Shown in pieces: positions 3,963 to 32,067 of a stretch of 64,000 nt of DNA. The position numbers were made by a program, and so were the translations under genes. The DNA comes from Owenia fusiformis. Taxonomy: Eukaryota > Annelida > Polychaeta > Sabellida > Oweniidae. Within the stretch, counting starts at the first letter, position 1; every line of letters begins with the position of its first letter. The notes beneath the pieces are model-generated. The model had not been told where the DNA came from, made no database searches, and saw only the letters and a list, made by a program, of their open reading frames with translations. Location of the stretch: positions 22,706,455 to 22,770,454 of the forward strand of contig CAIIXF020000002.1 in assembly GCA_903813345.2 (NCBI GenBank). The letters run 5' to 3'.

Positions 3963-6900
3963 GTAGGTGCGATTTGATAGTTTGCATAATAAAAAAAACT
4001 ATTTTCTTATTTTTCAAAAATTCAATATCTGTAATATGGCCAAGTTGGCTGGGATTCATTTTATTTTATTTTATGTAAAGGCAGTGAAACCCATATTTTA
4101 CAGTTGCCATTTGCGTTCACACTTATTCAAATGCTTTGAGTTACTTTGGAATAAATTTTTTTCGCTTCGATAAAATTAAACCCTAGGTGAGGTCCTATTG
4201 TTGGCCAGATCATTGGCTATAAAATTCATTCACTGTTTTAGTAATAAATATTTATTAAGTCTTTACGGAACAGTACATTCTTATTATTTTTGGTCATTCT
4301 TTTTTATTTTTATTTTTGGAAAGACATGTCTTTTTTCACTGACTTTATATTGAATGTACTGCACATGTATGTTGGATCATTCGGCTTAGATAGAAATACA
4401 TTCAGGTATTCATCAAGCTCCTGCACCCCCCCCCCCCCCCCATCAGAAATAATGTTTGTAATTCAGTTATCCTTTCATTGCTGTAGTCTACCTGCTAGCC
4501 TTTGTAACCCCAATTTCACACAACCACAAGGTGTTGAAGTAGATAGGGGGGGGGATCCCATGAAGTAAGGCTATTAAAATATTGCTTATACTGCTATATG
4601 GATCATAGAAATACTTATGCACTCAAAAAAACTGAGCTCACAGAAGAATTTAGGTCAATAATCAATTGAGAATCTATTCACATCTTTCCAATCCTATTAA
4701 TCAAACAGCAATTACAGTTAGACATTACCCATTTATGCATTTTTTATGATCACATTTTCAGCTGTCAGAGAGTTTGACATTTAGACATAACCTTTTGATG
4801 TTTTATTAAAAGGCAATTTTTATCTATAAATGTATGATAAGGGCACTTTTCTTGCATGGAGGCAATTGCTATGTACAACTAGAGACCTGGCGTTTGTCAT
4901 TGATCAGGACTGGTTGATGGAAAGAGCGTTACTGTACCTAGAAATGATATAGTGGCAATATCTGAGCTATTCAGTGGCTAGGCAAGGTGTGTTCGATTCC
5001 AGCCAATCAAAACACAGTATTTCATATTACCAATCCAAGCATAACTGCATCCAAGGTCATTCCTTATTTGGTTGTCAAGGTGACAACCTGATTCTACAGA
5101 TTGAAATTGATGCTTTGCCAACTTGACCTTGCAAAAAGTTTCATTGAAAATATATTCATTTTGTGATTTTGTATCATTTAAGTGACATAGTAGAAAATAT
5201 TTTGCACTGTGTGAAAAGAATTTAGGCCCAAGACTCAATGCATTGTGTAATCACCATTCATTTCAGGCATTGTTTCATAAAATTAGACACTGCACACTAG
5301 ACACTGCACTTCTCGCGCAAATTTTGGAAAGCAACACCTTCAAGGAACAGTCATTCCACATTGCACTGAGTCCAGGGCTTAAATCCTTAATTAAGTCCTT
5401 AAACATATTTCAAGTACATTAGCTTGAACAATATAGTCCAGTGTAAAACTTACTGTAAACATACAAATGCAGAAATCATAAGTCTAATTAAATAAAACAA
5501 GGAAACCTCAAACATTGTCATAATTATTGTATGATTTTAATATGTCAAAGTGTCTCGGGACACTAGTTATCAATGAATTCAGCATATCCATCATCATATG
5601 ACACTTGCTTGTCAAACTTACCATAAAAGGAATCTTCTTACCATATTTGGAAAGATCAAGGGGTTAAGGTCACATGGGGAAGTACAGATCCATAGAACAT
5701 TACAGGGACAGACAGGAAAAGTGATCTTTTGGCTGAAGAATTATTTGTTCTAAAATCCTCGAGTGCATCATAGATAAGAATTAAACCCCCTTAATTGTTA
5801 GAATTATTAATAATGCACATTGCCCCAGCTCACCAGACTACACTTTACTTTATTTTTCTGTATGTAAATTATTTCACTATATTACTCTACTCTGCATTTT
5901 ATTCGATGCCACTATATTATATTATATTCCATTGTATTTCACTACAATGCCACTGTTTTTGTCTATGTTCCAATATATTACATTATATATGTATTTCACT
6001 TTATTCCATGGTATGCCACTGTATTTCACTCTATTCCACTGTATATCCTTGTTTGCCACTGTATTTCACTTCATTCCACTGTATTGTAGGTGTACCAAGG
6101 ACCAGACGAGGAGATGTTTGGGAGTTGATGATTGAACAACATAAACTTCACAACCCATCAGTAGGGGACCCTAACGTAGAACTAGCCATACCTTACCATG
6201 AACTCCTTAAACAGTTGACCACTCAGCAGCACGCAATACTCATTGACCTAGGTGAGTGCAATACTTATTGACTTAGATGAGTGCAATACTCATTGACCTA
6301 GGTGAGTGCAATACTCATTGACTTAGATGAATGCAATACTCATTGACTTAGATGAGTGCAATACTCATTGACTTAGATGAGTGTAATACTTATTGACTTA
6401 GATGAGTGCAATACTCATTGACCTAGGTGAGTGCAATACTCATTGACTTAGATGAGTTCAATACTCATTGACTTAGATGAGTGTAATACTCATTGACCTA
6501 GGTGAGTGCAATACTCATTGACTTAGATGAGTGCAATACTCATTGACTTAGATGAGTGTAATACTTATTGACTTAGATGAGTGCAATACTCATTGACCTA
6601 GGTGAGTGCAATACTCATTGACTTAGATGAGTTCAATACTCATTGACTTAGATGAGTGTAATACCCATTGACTTAGATGAGTGCAATACTCATTGACTTA
6701 GATGAGTGCAATACTTATTGGCTTAGTTGAGTGCAATAATCATTGACCTAGATGAGTGCAATACTCATTGGCTTAGGTGAATGCTGAACTGGAATGTTCT
6801 TGTATTTTCAATATAGCACCACCAAGAAGTGGTGACATATTGTCATAGCCTTTATTTTCTTTGATATTCAGCGTTAAGATTTTGGTATGTATGATCTATT

Positions 6901-9900
6901 GTTGGTGTCACCTCTGAAGTCATTTGGCCTGTTTATGCCTTGTAAATTACTTGAATTTATGATCAAAATGAAGAATACAATTTCTGGTATACATGTTTTT
7001 CGTTTCCTTAATTTTTAGTGATAAATTGTTTCGTATAAACTCATCAGTTGCCAGATTTTTATGTAAATCTTTTGATGGTGTCGCCATGTTCTTGTTATAA
7101 TTATTTACAATTATTTATTTATAAAAGATTTACAAAATTGTAAGCTCTACTTCTAATATTGATTAATTTGCTCAAAGGTGAAAAGAGATTAGATACAAAT
7201 TAATAGTAATGGTTTATTAGTAATTTATGAGCAATGTGTATTTCAAAACAGCCTCTGTTTGTTTAAAACTATTAGAATACTTGAGAATAAGTTACTATTT
7301 AACTAGTTAGAGTTATCTTGTGGAACAATATACAAAATATACAAAATAAAATTCTATTTTTCTGATTTTTGGCAAATACTATCATAAAAATTATCAAATT
7401 TATTTCATCAAAATCTTCTAATTTGAATTCTTGTATTTTCTTTGTGACATCTTATATCAATGCAACTCATATCATATTTTAAGCCTAGAAAACATTATGC
7501 ATATTCAAATGAGATCCACCCAAATTAAGTTTGAACAATTGTTGTTCGTATATAAAGTAAGTTTAAATCTCCTGTGAATTGTAGGGACGCCTACATGAGT
7601 TGAATTGAGTCATATTGATGCCTGCCTTTAAGGCCAAGGCAACCAGAGAAATGCCTGTTAAGGCAATCGAGAAAATGCATTAAACTAATGCATGCCATAT
7701 AAGGAACATGGGTTAAGCCCATTAGTACTGAGATAACCAAAGTCACTGAAACTGAATTAAGTAACGAGGACAAAGCATAAGCTAAATGGGGACGCCATAA
7801 GGGTATCTTCCTAGATGGGTACACTGGTCACATATTGGGAACTGTGTGAACTAGTGCATTGGGTGAATGGTGAGGCAAAGGCCACAACAGTCATCCTGAC
7901 AGCTTGCAAATTCTGGGTTCTCCCAACCAGACCCTGGCAGGTAGTTCCATGGGAAGGTATCCTTTTGAGTTTTTGATGTATGTCAATTAAAACAGGGTTT
8001 TATCCCATGGATACTAAATGGGGATAACAACACAAGATAATTTTGGTATGCCCAATTCAAATCATATCTCATTTATGAAAAATCATATCCGACTGATATA
8101 TAGAGGATATGATTTATGAGTGATATGATTTTTATCCACGAATGGATATGATATCTGCACGAGCGAGCGTAGCGAGAGAGTGCAGATATCAATAACCATG
8201 AGTGGATTAAAATCATATCACGAGTAAATCATAGGATGTTCTTTTTATTCCATAGTTAAAGTCATCATCAGAATCGTCGGAAATTAAGTCATTTAATTCG
8301 AATTTTCCAAACGATCCGGCGATGTTGACACTTAGCCTCGTTTTGAGTCTGAAGTAGCAAAAATCCATAAACCATCGCATACGACGTCGTATGTCATGGC
8401 TAAAAAATCGTATGCTATGGTTAAGTGAAAGTTTGTCAAAAATATCATATTTTACCACTGATTACAAAAATACCGTTTTTATTTTCACATGTTATCCTAT
8501 GAATATCATGCTAACTATGGAATAAGACATGATATCCAACGGATACTATTTTTTCATTAGTTTTGAATTTAGCGCCGAAAATGGTTTAACAAATAACAGC
8601 TTTGGCTGATTGAACTACCAGAATACAGTTCCAAGCATTATGTGCTTATTAAAATGATTTAAATGTTTTCATGCAATCACTTTGCATAACACTTTTTCAG
8701 TTTGAATAACTACTCAAGCTTTTCTTAAAACGTAGTTACTCAATTTTTAGGTCAAACTATTTCAATTCAATACAAAAATAGCAACCATAGGATAAATAAG
8801 ATATCCTATAATTTTCTCGGGCTATCATTTTTATCCACTTCGCATGGATAAAAATGATATCCCTAAAAAAGCATAGGATATCCTCTATCCTTTAGGAAAG
8901 TATTGCCTGGAAAACATAGCCAGGAAGACATTGTCAATACTCCTATTCGCTATAAGAGTTCAGGTGGTAATTTACATAAATATCTCCCATGATGCATCGC
9001 TTTGGAAGGGACAATTTTTCATTGGCCCGCCGAACGAGTCGAATAATCTGAACGTTTCTCAGCTTCTGATCTTCCATCACCCCTCAAGTATAGTTATGTG
9101 ATCCAATCTATTGAATAATCAGAAAGATAATCGGAGATTCGAAGTAACATTATTGATATTTTTTCGATCTTCGATGAAGTCTGAGCAATTTGGAAAATCA
9201 GTGACGTCACTGGAATTGGACGGCATTTTCAACTGCAGATTTCTTCGGATGTGGGGATTACAGTTCAAAAAGCCTTATTTTATATCTTAATTACATATAT
9301 ACCTATCATTTGTGCAAATGCAACTCTACATAAATGTTTAATAAAGTCGCAGTGCGGCATTGAAAATAGCACCCCTGTGTAATCCAATGGGAAAGAACCC
9401 GGATGTAGACGAAGTTGTACCGTACATGAGAGCTCTTCAAACGAGAGTTAACTAAACTGGACGAAAACTAAACGTTATCGCGTATTGGTATATTACGTGG
9501 ATCAATGATTTTTGTTTTCTACGATGTTGAGAAACAGAAAAATCTTAGAAGATAATTGAATCCACAAAGTTTTTTTGAAAAATGGGCTCCAGGAAGTCCA
9601 TTTGTATCAGCAATGTAAACTAAGATTGAAAGAAATCTCATATTTATTTTCAGGACGTACATTTCCCAGTCATCCCTACTTTGCTGCTCAGTTGGGACCA
9701 GGCCAGTTAGCTTTGTTTAATTTGTTAAAAGCCTACAGTCTCCTTGACCAAGAAGTTGGATACTGCCAGGGCCTTAGCTTTGTAGCAGGAATACTTCTAA
9801 TGCATGTAAGTAAAGTTGAACCCTACTTATAAGTTTTTAAGTGAGTTACAGTTTTTAGGCATTTTTTGCTCAATAACCAATCAGTTTCCTGGACCTTTTG

Positions 9901-12900
9901 TTTCAGATTGGGACTACACAATATGAATAGCATTGGTACTGTGCACTCCCAATTCAAAATAAAGTTATACCAAAGTATATACCGTACAGCATTTATATAT
10001 TTTTGAAATTTAAGATTTCACTTGGAAATGCTCATCATATTAACTCGTTCAATGTGGTATTAATATTATCCATCAAGTTTTACTCATTTGATATCAGAAA
10101 ATATCTGACTTTTGAAATCAGTTATATAGAGCAATGTTGCCATGGCTTTTTTGGAGGTCAGAATGTGTTTTGAATAAAAAGCTCTGATTTTTTTTATTGT
10201 ATGTTCTCTAGATGGGTGAAGACAGCGCCTTTGAGGCTATGAAGTATGTCATGTTCAACCTAGGCTTCCGTAAACAATACCGTCCTGATATGACTTCACT
10301 ACAGGTACGTTTGCATTAAAGGTGGTGGATTCCCCGAATGCTCAGTAACAGTTACCCATCGTGCAACATAATAATGATTTTCATTCCTTGAAAAAATGGG
10401 TTATTTGAAATGTTAGTACGCACTGTATGTAAAGGTAGAGAGAAAGTCAACTCAAAATGTAACATGCAAAAAAAAGTTTTTGTTGATTTAATAGATGAAA
10501 AGCAGATGGAAATAGAAATGTATAGATCTCTGTTTTTAATTACGCAAATCTAACCCAGTGAGCATCTATTTACTCAACGCATTTTACTTTGAATTTGAAC
10601 TTTTGTACACACTGCCATCATTATGTGTCAATCACATCACATCGATAATATTACATTTTATATTTCTCAATTACTTCAACTACCTATCCCTATACTTTAC
10701 AGATCCAGATGTATCAGCTTTCACGTTTGATCCACGATCGTCACAAGGATTTATATGACCATTTTGAGACCAATGAGATCGTCCCAACGCTGTATGCTGC
10801 ACCATGGTTTCTTACTCTCTTTGCATCCCAGTTCCCACTGGGTTTTGTGGCCAGAGTCTTTGGTAGGTAGAATTCAAAGGTTCACCTCTTTCAATGGAGG
10901 GTATATGTTCAAAAATTGGACATTTTTATGTCACTCTAATTGGGACATAAATAGATAAATGTGTGACTACATATTATGTAATTTTCTTAAATATTTTTTT
11001 TTTGTGTGTCAGAGTTTTATATCATTGTCTATTAGTACTCTATTTTGAACTCATCACTGATTTTTTATAATATTGAATGATTAAAATAATTTATTAATGA
11101 CAAATTGACCCCTTGAGTATTCTATGTGGACTACTTCTATATTGTTGAGTATAATTGATACCAAAAATAAAAGATAAAGAATATTACAAGCAGAATTTAC
11201 AGTGTATATCACTTGGTGAAATCGATAAAATAATATAAAAAAAGATGTCTTATTTTCGGATATTTGTGTAAAAAGATGCGTAATAATACAGTATTTCCAT
11301 TCAGTATTGTAATTATTATATTATATTATGAAGGAAAAAAATATAATCAGCTTAATATACTATATTATATAGAGATTAATATAATATAATTAGAAATAAG
11401 TGAGATCCAAATATATTATTTGTACATATAAACATTTACCAAATCCGACTATCTCAATAAGAAAATGTAGCAGAATGTTTTATTCCCGGTATAATATTCT
11501 TTTTTAGAATTATTTGCGCCAATTTATATTTTTTCTGTCTTTTTAAAATATTATTTGGTCATATTTATCAATCCAAACTGATGATTGCAGTCTATTTATA
11601 TTTTTTTCTATTCTAAAAAATATTATTTTCTAGTATTTTCCAATCTAAGCAGAATATATCAAATTATATTGTATTATTTGGGTTCTAAAAAATATTATAC
11701 GCGATTATTCTCGTCCAACTTGATGTACAATCCATCTGGTTAATTACTTAACCAAACAAAACAAAGAATGCACAGCATGGCAGTTAATAGGATTAACCAT
11801 TCTACTGGCCATCTCATCTCTATTACTTACACATGTCACACATATTTTTTTTGACTGTTCTAGTTCTATTTGAAAAATATTTACAAATAAATGTTTAGAA
11901 GAAAGAAATTTAACTTGTTTTAAATTAATGTTAACAATTGAGTAAAAATGTGAAAAAGTCATCAATAAAAAATAAAATAATTAACTTTCTAATGAGTTAA
12001 TCGATTCAATCCAAATTTTAACACAATGTTAATCATAGAAAGAGGGATTCTATACAATTAAACAAATATGAAAAACTTAATTTGCAAATTATTATTTTTG
12101 TGGAAAATAGAACAATCGGCTCTAGATATCAATCCATTTACTCTAACAAACGGATTAACTCTGACAATCGGATTAGTTATAAGTGAACAAAACTCATGTC
12201 ATAGAAATAGAAAAAACTTAGGGATTAAAGCATTACCTTTATTGCTCTGTCATCAATACATGTATGTGAATCGTGAAAATGTGCATGATTTTGAAAGAAT
12301 TGTTGGCCAAGGGGAGGGGATCGTTACTCGTCAAGTACGGGCCTGTATAAAATGCGTAATGTTTTTAGCTAAAATTTGAGCAGTTCTGTGTCAAGACTAT
12401 TTTTGTGGTTGGCAGAGTGAATACGGGTCGTTGTTTGTGCCTGTGTAAGAGGGGCACTTAAATGTTGTTTGTTGTTAACTTAATATGGCAGAGAAACAAT
12501 GGAGTAAAAATGTGAGGAAACCCATTGATTAAAAATTAACTTTCCGTTGAGTCAATCAATTTAATCCAAATTTTAACACAATGTTAATCATAACATAAGT
12601 GACATTATACAATCAAATAAATATGAAAAACTTGATTTTTAAATTATTTTTTGTGGAACTTAGAACTGTTGGCTGTAGGAAATTAATCCATTGCCTCTAA
12701 CAAACGGATTAGTTTTCAGTGTTAACAAAAAACATATTAAAGAAATTGAATAATTGGGGATTAAAGTTTTTCATATCACATTGCTCTGACATACATGTAC
12801 ATGTACTGTATGTCAACATGTTATTTACATCAGTTTGTTCTACCAGGTACCAATTTGCTCAAAGCGTAATCATCGCTTTCTCAGATGAAAGATTAGGAAT

Positions 12901-30483: not shown

Positions 30484-32067
30484 TCCTCCTCATTGTCGGA
30501 TTATCGTTCGGGACAGATTAAGGGCGCTGTTCAACAGAAGAGTGATTGCCTTGAACCACGAGATTGAGTTCATCGAGATCCCCAGACCTGACACCCTGCG
30601 ACTTCTTCCTTTGGGGTTATCTCAAGGGTAAAGTCTTCACAACACCACCAAGAGACGTTGATGATCTAAGGGCCAGGATTGTCACAGCAGTGGAGGATTT
30701 AAGGGGACAGAGAGACATCATCGGGGATGCAGTACGTGCGATGAGATCGGGTACACCCCAGTTCTCCGAAACCCAGTTGTCCGAAACCCAGTTCTCCGAA
30801 ACCCAGTTGTCCGAAACCCAATTCTCCGAAACCCAGTTGTCCGAAACCCAATTCCCCGAAACCCAGTTGTCCGAAACCCATTACTCCGAAAAGTAAAGTC
30901 ATAATTTACAAGAGAAATGGGGGGGGGGGCGTAGCTTACTTAAGCTTACGTCAGTTTCATGCCATGTATTTGGCCAAATTAATGGCATGGACGCATTCTG
31001 ATATTCATAGATCTCTCTCTCACTTTGAATTGCATCCATTGCATGGCGTTACCCGAATGGCAGGAACGGGAGATTTATTTTACATTGTGATTCTAAAAAA
31101 GGTTATTAAAACACAATATATATTACGGAACAGTTTATCTTATCTTCTTCAATCTCTTTTATATCAGTATATAGGCAAAATAAAATGAAACATTTTGAAA
31201 CAGATAAATTAAGTTATCGCATAGAACTTTAAGAATAAAACAGTATACAAATTACGTTGTCAATATATTTCGTCGCATTTAATTTCTTAGTCTCGGTCTC
31301 TTATCAAATCGTAAAAGAATAAAACATTCTAAACTTAATCACTTTGGATTTATGTTTCGGCATTCGTTTCAGGCATTTGTTTTTTATGTTCATCTCCTGA
31401 AATGTATTTGTTTGACAATAATCAGAGAAAGTGCTTATACGTATAAATATGCCACGCAAACAAACGGGTGTGACTTAGGTAGAATTAAAGAATACTTATG
31501 AACGAGTCAGGCAAGATACTAGAACTAGTAAAGTAAGCCTAATGTATTGGATAAGTTAATTTCTGATGGATCTGGATAAAATATATTTCAAAACTTTGTA
31601 AACACTAGATAACTTCATTTAGGCAGATATAGTAGCTTATCTTGATATATTTGGCTATCATGCGTTTAAAATACGTTCCTAAAACTATGAAGACGTTAGG
31701 TGAGAAATATTGCTATCGTACGTTCGAAAAGTATTTGGTTGTATTTTCTAGTTCTCAAGTTACCCATGAACTTTCGTGGGCTAATTAACGTCTTGACTTA
31801 GCATATTTAGCCTAATTTTGCAATGATGTCAACGTGATTCAAATGTTATGCTGTCGTGATTCGCAGAGGTTGCGACAAGATTCGTTTTAAGAAATTGTTT
31901 TTTTATAAGATCCCCTAATTTTCGGAGAACTGGGTTTCGGACAACTGGGTTTCGGAGAATTGGGTTTCGGACAACTGGGTTTCGGACAACTGGGTTGACC
32001 CCGATGAGATCAAGGGCAGACATTTGCATTGAAAGGAATGGGGGTCATGTTGAAGGACACTAGGGTT
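30484..32067 (+). pseudogene. Tc1/mariner transposase fragment, split by a nested element
   Basis: Residues APPHCRIIVRDRLRALFNRR and VIALNHEIE come in one frame. After a frameshift near 30563 come SSRSPDLTPCDFFLWGYLKG, KVFTTPPRDVDDLRARIVTA and DAVRAMRS. The frame resumes at 32012 after the insertion with RADICIERNGGHVEGH and a stop. The usual DGAPPH catalytic aspartate reads as RSAPPH, so it is lost. SPDLTPCDFFLWG is the third-acidic-residue region of this transposase group. Confidence 0.8.
30749..32002. mobile_element. Foldback-type element, tandem-repeat TIRs, 9-bp target duplication
   Basis: GATGAGATC flanks it at 30740-30748 and 32003-32011. The ends read GGGTACACCCCAGTT (left) and GGGGTCAACCCAGTT (complement of right). 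The TIRs are tandem 15-bp units CCCAGTTnTCCGAAA: nine on the left (30757-30891) and five in inverted orientation on the right (31920-31994). Alternating G and C at the variable base gives a 30-bp higher-order period. Drosophila FB elements share tandem-unit TIRs and 9-bp duplications. The 1.0-kb interior has no recognised coding sequence and starts with a G tract near 30919. Confidence 0.88.

Follow-up and report, generated by a model that had tools for sequence, protein, structure and literature searches.

Within a 64,000-nucleotide stretch of the Owenia fusiformis genome (hereafter the window; all coordinates are on its forward strand), a minisatellite repeats the 5' splice site of a coding exon. 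This raises the questions of which donor the spliceosome would take when identical sites follow one another in tandem, and why most of the copies no longer carry a GT at the donor position.

A minisatellite seeded by the end of a coding exon

The array proposed in the initial annotation was confirmed. TRF placed it at 6233-6784 (period 25, 22.1 copies, indels 0%), and cutting the sequence from 6233 yielded 22 units of exactly 25 bp each (6233-6782) without indels. The 25-base blocks located immediately before and after it showed 16 and 17 mismatches with unit 1, respectively. When the 25-mer was searched with up to 3 mismatches in the 498-Mb assembly, 18/18 matches fell within the array and the backward-read control gave 0, indicating that the array is not due to chance. 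We found neither a second copy nor another haplotype of the array in the assembly searched, an absence that does not prove that none exists. The GC content of the window is 29-40%; amphioxus DNA is richer in GC. It also contains a minisatellite of 29 bp (1175-1460, 9.9 copies) and two arrays with a 15-bp period (30757-30891 and 31920-31996), located about 1 kb apart; the units of one array are nearly the reverse complement of those of the other, an arrangement like that of an inverted mobile element.

The exon concerned (exon 2 of the initial annotation) spans positions 6090-6251, between the acceptor TTGTAG/GT and a phase 1 donor, and was delimited by its reading frame and its match to TBC1D1/TBC1D4. 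Its 53 encoded residues matched the TBC domains of TBC1D1 (E 5e-10) and TBC1D4 (E 6.4e-9); a Pfam search with this exon alone gave no match at E 0.001. After an intron of 3402 bp (6252-9653), the next coding exon (9654-9805) carries a CGT codon at 9656-9658 encoding the R of LGRTFP, which we take to be the arginine finger of the TBC domain. The following TBC-domain exon (10703-10862) was recognized by its Pfam TBC match, its sequence and its donor. A DUF3350 domain, known from TBC1D1/TBC1D4, was matched only once across the assembly, 3.4 kb 5' of the window start and on the same strand. Judging from these similarities, the gene harboring the array is a TBC1D1/TBC1D4-type Rab-GAP.

Unit 1 (6233-6257) is composed of 19 coding bases, GCA ATA CTC ATT GAC CTA G (6233-6251), followed by GTGAGT, and is identical to units 3, 8, and 15. 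The tandem unit thus spans the exon-intron boundary, with 19 coding and 6 intronic bases. The exonic part encodes AILIDL, a motif common to human TBC1D1; since this part is conserved and codes for protein, the copies derive from the exon, in agreement with the previous suggestion that the exon end, together with its donor, gave rise to the array. Joining exons 2 and 3 through the donor of unit 1 (GT at 6252-6253) produced a peptide aligned with TBC1D1 (E 4.5e-43) without any gap across LIDL-G-RTFP. It is thus the donor of unit 1 that is in register with exon 3, and the protein register through it is intact. On the other side of the exon, a degenerate 10/40-bp repeat (TGTATTCCAC-like, 5990-6085) ends just 5' of the acceptor, so that repeats border exon 6090-6251 at both of its ends.

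Competing donors and the history of the units

The donor position is occupied by GT in units 1, 3, 8, 11, 15, and 22, by AT in 15 units and by TT in unit 20; the distribution of GT and AT is exactly the one previously described. The decoy GTs of units 3 (6302-6303), 8 (6427-6428), 11 (6502-6503), and 15 (6602-6603) are surrounded by the same bases as the true donor from -3 to +8, and that of unit 22 (6777-6778) is weaker (TAGGTGAAT). Pairing computed with the species' own U1 5' end (ATACTTACCTGG, copy L006) amounted to -11.7 kcal/mol for units 1, 3, 8, 11, and 15, -6.8 for unit 22, and -0.1 to -5.8 for the AT and TT units. The corresponding values for two other donors of the gene were -7.1 and -10.4 kcal/mol. 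From this equal computed pairing, four decoys would be as strong as the true donor and better than the two other donors. Among the matches listed for U1 snRNA, we observed a tandem gene cluster at C9:23745153-23771556, mostly with one gene per 750 bp.

A transcript spliced at any of the five GT donors that follow unit 1 would include TGA 6269-6271, the first in-frame stop encountered when reading through the exon end, ahead of the arginine codon 9656-9658, as had been predicted. The splice junctions proposed at the same time correctly designated the six GT sites but were shifted by one base, since the exon ends with base 6251 and the G of GT occupies position 6252; the predicted junction ends are 6251, 6301, 6426, 6501, 6601, and 6776.

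The presence of CTAG/GTGAGT in five units, such that any stretch between two of them starts with GT and ends with AG, suggested recursive splicing, in which these units would serve as acceptor and then as donor and the array would be removed stepwise, leaving the same final mRNA. We regard this as hardly credible, because the AG is not preceded by a pyrimidine tract (9 pyrimidines among the 17 bases AATACTCATTGACCTAG) and single steps of 50 bp would correspond to very short introns. The units thus have the AG/GT of a recursive splice site but lack its pyrimidine tract. We also rejected intron gain by tandem duplication (the Rogers model), which would create a new intron bounded by the GT of one copy and the AG of the following copy. 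Homology indicates that exon 2 is joined to exon 3, 3.4 kb further on, without any intervening sequence.

The units have retained traces of their history. The best self-offset of the array is 175 (94.4%), corresponding to a higher-order duplication of a 7-unit block, units 5-11 (6333-6507) and units 12-18 (6508-6682). Six of the seven units are identical in the two copies (units 5-10 and 12-17, over 150 bp), and unit 18 differs from unit 11 by 3 bases. The 175-bp block was thus duplicated recently, which supports the recent expansion of the array that had been proposed.

The change from GT to AT is linked with a C>T change located four bases upstream: five units have C..G, 15 have T..A, and each of the two mixed classes is represented by one unit (Fisher p = 0.0013), the two states agreeing in 16/22 units. 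Because of this linkage, our preferred interpretation of the AT units is that a single linked variant spread. The mixed classes (units 20-22) and the TT of unit 20 point to a small number of additional events, not enough to make a case for selection.

Kinship with known junction repeats

The window array is a member of a class that is already known, though it has attracted little notice, and that includes the amphioxus mirages and the junction repeats of human ABCA7, CBS, and F7. Mirages have been described in the amphioxus genes Adh3, BflGb6, and BflGb9 (the last two encoding globins), in which regular splicing is undisturbed and array length is unstable (PMC3087553). The window array resembles them in its unit spanning the exon-intron boundary, in the splice signals present in the copies (AG/GT in units 1, 3, 8, 11, 15, and 22) and in its concerted evolution, visible in the identity of units 5-10 with units 12-17 and of unit 1 with its three exact copies. 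The amphioxus arrays are documented by haplotype length differences and RT-PCR, whereas the window array is known from a single assembly (PMC3087553).

The three human repeats share with the window array the location of the exon's donor within the first unit. The VNTR of ABCA7 intron 18 also has a 25-bp unit (23.7 copies in the human reference), and use of its next donor likewise keeps 25 bp and shifts the frame; 2 +/- 1% of the transcripts retain one unit, and the length of the array differs among people and influences expression (PMC5954066). This array begins at the GT, whereas the unit of the window array includes 19 coding bases (PMC5954066). In CBS, the 31-bp VNTR c.1444_1467+7 (16-21 copies, polymorphic) combines, as in our case, coding and intronic bases (24 + 7 according to its name) in a unit of constant length (PMC2630376). 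In F7 intron 7, the donor lies within the first of several homologous 37-bp repeats and normal splicing takes only the donor furthest upstream, a point tested by experiment (PMC6627357). Finally, minisatellites located at exon-intron boundaries, as in the window, have been reported as internal tandem repeats in human segmental duplications, with 27 intron modifications; these repeats often enter the transcript or form novel introns, whereas the copies in the window stay intronic by homology (PMC2812944).

Our favored reading, to which we give a probability of about 85%, is that the window array is a mirage with first-donor splicing, passive decoys, and AT units mainly derived from one variant. 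The array would have been born by tandem duplication of 25 bp spanning the exon-intron junction of the TBC1D1/TBC1D4-type gene and would have lengthened into the intron through further unequal exchange, including the recent duplication of one 7-unit (175-bp) block. The spliceosome would take the 5'-most donor, that of unit 1, and the five later GT donors would be passive decoys, rarely or never used. Duplication or conversion would have propagated a single variant, combining the donor G>A with the C>T located four bases upstream, from which most AT units descend; repeated removal of decoys would not be their origin. The copies could be tolerated if the 5'-most donor is used. Two points weigh against this reading: the computed U1 pairing of four decoys equals that of the true donor, and the downstream site wins in some experiments with duplicated donors.

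Junction-spanning arrays across the genome

We searched the assembly for three copies of AGGTRAGT, TAGGTGAGT or AGGTAAGT at 18-49 bp spacing and obtained 570, 52, and 213 matching places, respectively. From 100, 52, and 100 listed places, we took a subset of 35 arrays, leaving out a third neighboring copy near C6:14.34 Mb. These arrays are not all independent, since L011 and L013 are copies of each other, as are L034 and L035. L011 and L013, located at different places of C1, have near-identical flanks and an 18-bp AGGTGAGTGATTTTGGAC-like repeat and probably correspond to a dispersed element.

In 23 of the 35 arrays, an open frame extending over 20 codons or more from an acceptor-like site ended at the first donor, compared to 12/40 single TAGGTGAGT sites (p = 0.002; the control sites being 40 of the 100 listed, from a total of 2921). 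The like-for-like comparison with 12 arrays was weak, with p = 0.026, 0.18, and 0.13 for thresholds of 20, 25, and 30 codons, respectively. A strict exon score including codon usage was above 0 in 17/35 arrays, 9/40 single sites and 5.7% of 600 random sites, and above 2 in 14/35 arrays, 6/40 single sites and 2.8% of the random sites. We adopted the simpler open-frame criterion because the strict score overlooked several exons supported by homology (e.g., L018); the open-frame criterion itself misses L018 and L034/L035 (16 codons) and includes the doubtful L012.

Homology supported the exon in nine genes, seven through Pfam and two through PDB. At E 0.01, Pfam matched 7 of 20 candidate exons and not the 13 others, with 3/7 matches above the curated cut-off. 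The families recovered were Mon2 (L020), Arfaptin (L023), CIMR (L026, weak), UDP-glucose dehydrogenase (L029), kringle (L038), Ras (L041, weak), and an Il2rg-named family (L042). The PDB matches were glucosamine-6-phosphate isomerase (L018) and neuronal calcium sensor 1 (L036); the same search gave no match for the L040 exon. In L018 and L036, we located the next exon and the joined peptide aligned to known proteins without insertion, which identifies the first donor as that in register. For L019 and L023, next exons were also seen.

These arrays bear on the fate of the decoys. In the window array, 16/21 extra units have lost GT, and TT in unit 20 requires a second change at the same base, which could suggest that GT units were misspliced and that selection favored their replacement by the AT variant, as the initial annotation had considered. 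This loss, unlike the situation in 22 other arrays, also speaks against our favored reading, but the search required three intact donors, so that cases like the window array cannot appear among the 22. In these arrays, judged to be exon-seeded (20 of the 23 open-frame ones plus L018 and L034, leaving out L012, L031, and L032), chosen for their intact donors, GT was kept in 354/376 units after the first and the full AGGTRAGT in 287/376. Up to 68 donors (L038) lie downstream of the first one, and the existence of dozens of strong donors behind true ones, with no sign of removal, is sensible if the first donor is used. The retention of donors in these arrays thus speaks against the purging of decoys and for passive copies. 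Likewise, +1 and +2 changed in 3.7% and 2.7% of cases, no more often than the other seven positions of -3 to +6 (2.7-17.8%); the selection of these arrays for intact donors affects the eight positions -2 to +6 alike. In the window itself, the donor change is linked to a neutral-looking upstream change, and four decoys still match the true donor from -3 to +6, three of them over the whole unit. We thus consider selection against decoy donors quite unlikely and did not retain this explanation.

Donor retention could alternatively have reflected conservation of the decoys. We compared the divergence of the motif with that of other windows of 8 bases in these units, each likewise required to be intact in three copies. 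The motif was less diverged in 17/22 arrays in an alignment-based test (p = 0.003), but with units of exact length only it was lower in 9, 10, and 7 of 17 arrays (p = 0.78, 0.21, and 0.58), the motif being neither more nor less diverged than the other windows. As the signal disappeared once no alignment was needed, we attributed it to an alignment artefact, and we do not argue that selection either retained or purged the decoys.

In 18 of 23 arrays (window array included), every decoy examined would introduce a stop or shift the frame. The in-frame stop common to all five later GT donors of the window and the use of the second ABCA7 unit in some transcripts (PMC5954066) raised the question of a regulated switch, in which varied use of later donors would produce stop-carrying transcripts tuning the amount of Rab-GAP. 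We find such a role very improbable: the gene is not set apart from those harboring the other arrays, which are unrelated, unit lengths and frames differ, and five of the 23 arrays (L008, L009, L020, L033, and L042) have at least one decoy in frame before a stop.

Our partial literature search recovered no genome-wide count of donor-spanning minisatellites. The kind itself is known, and the window array is a new member of it. It is tempting to suggest that, in O. fusiformis, minisatellites preferentially arise or find refuge at exon-donor junctions, where strict use of the first donor makes them harmless, and that junction-spanning arrays occur genome-wide in ordinary genes, not only at donors but at acceptors as well; we hold this only tentatively and, on balance, doubt it. 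TAGGTGAGT arrays were more frequent (12 per 2921 sites) than those of the backward motif (3 per 4655; odds ratio 6.4, p = 0.002), but the broader motifs were not in excess of theirs in the assembly (570 versus 517 places for AGGTRAGT and 213 versus 357 for AGGTAAGT), so that a general hot spot is not established. For the acceptor counterpart, TTTTCAGG arrays were present at 197 places versus 33 for the control, and in 5/20 sampled arrays (L103, L109, L111, L114, and L119) the last unit seems, by eye, to enter the start of an exon.

Duplicated identical donors are a classic test of how the spliceosome chooses a 5' splice site, and nature seems to have made dozens of such constructs in unrelated genes of one genome. 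If junctions are indeed preferred, this set of arrays would represent a natural genome-wide experiment on the choice among identical competing 5' splice sites. RNA-seq junction counts from this species would oppose, at scale, the first-donor ("oriented scanning") rule to a preference for the proximal site, and would show how junction arrays such as those of human ABCA7, CBS, and F7 are tolerated. Beyond the spacing limits of our search, five TAGGTGAGT repeats spaced by 67-91 bp were also observed at C1:5732390-5732738.
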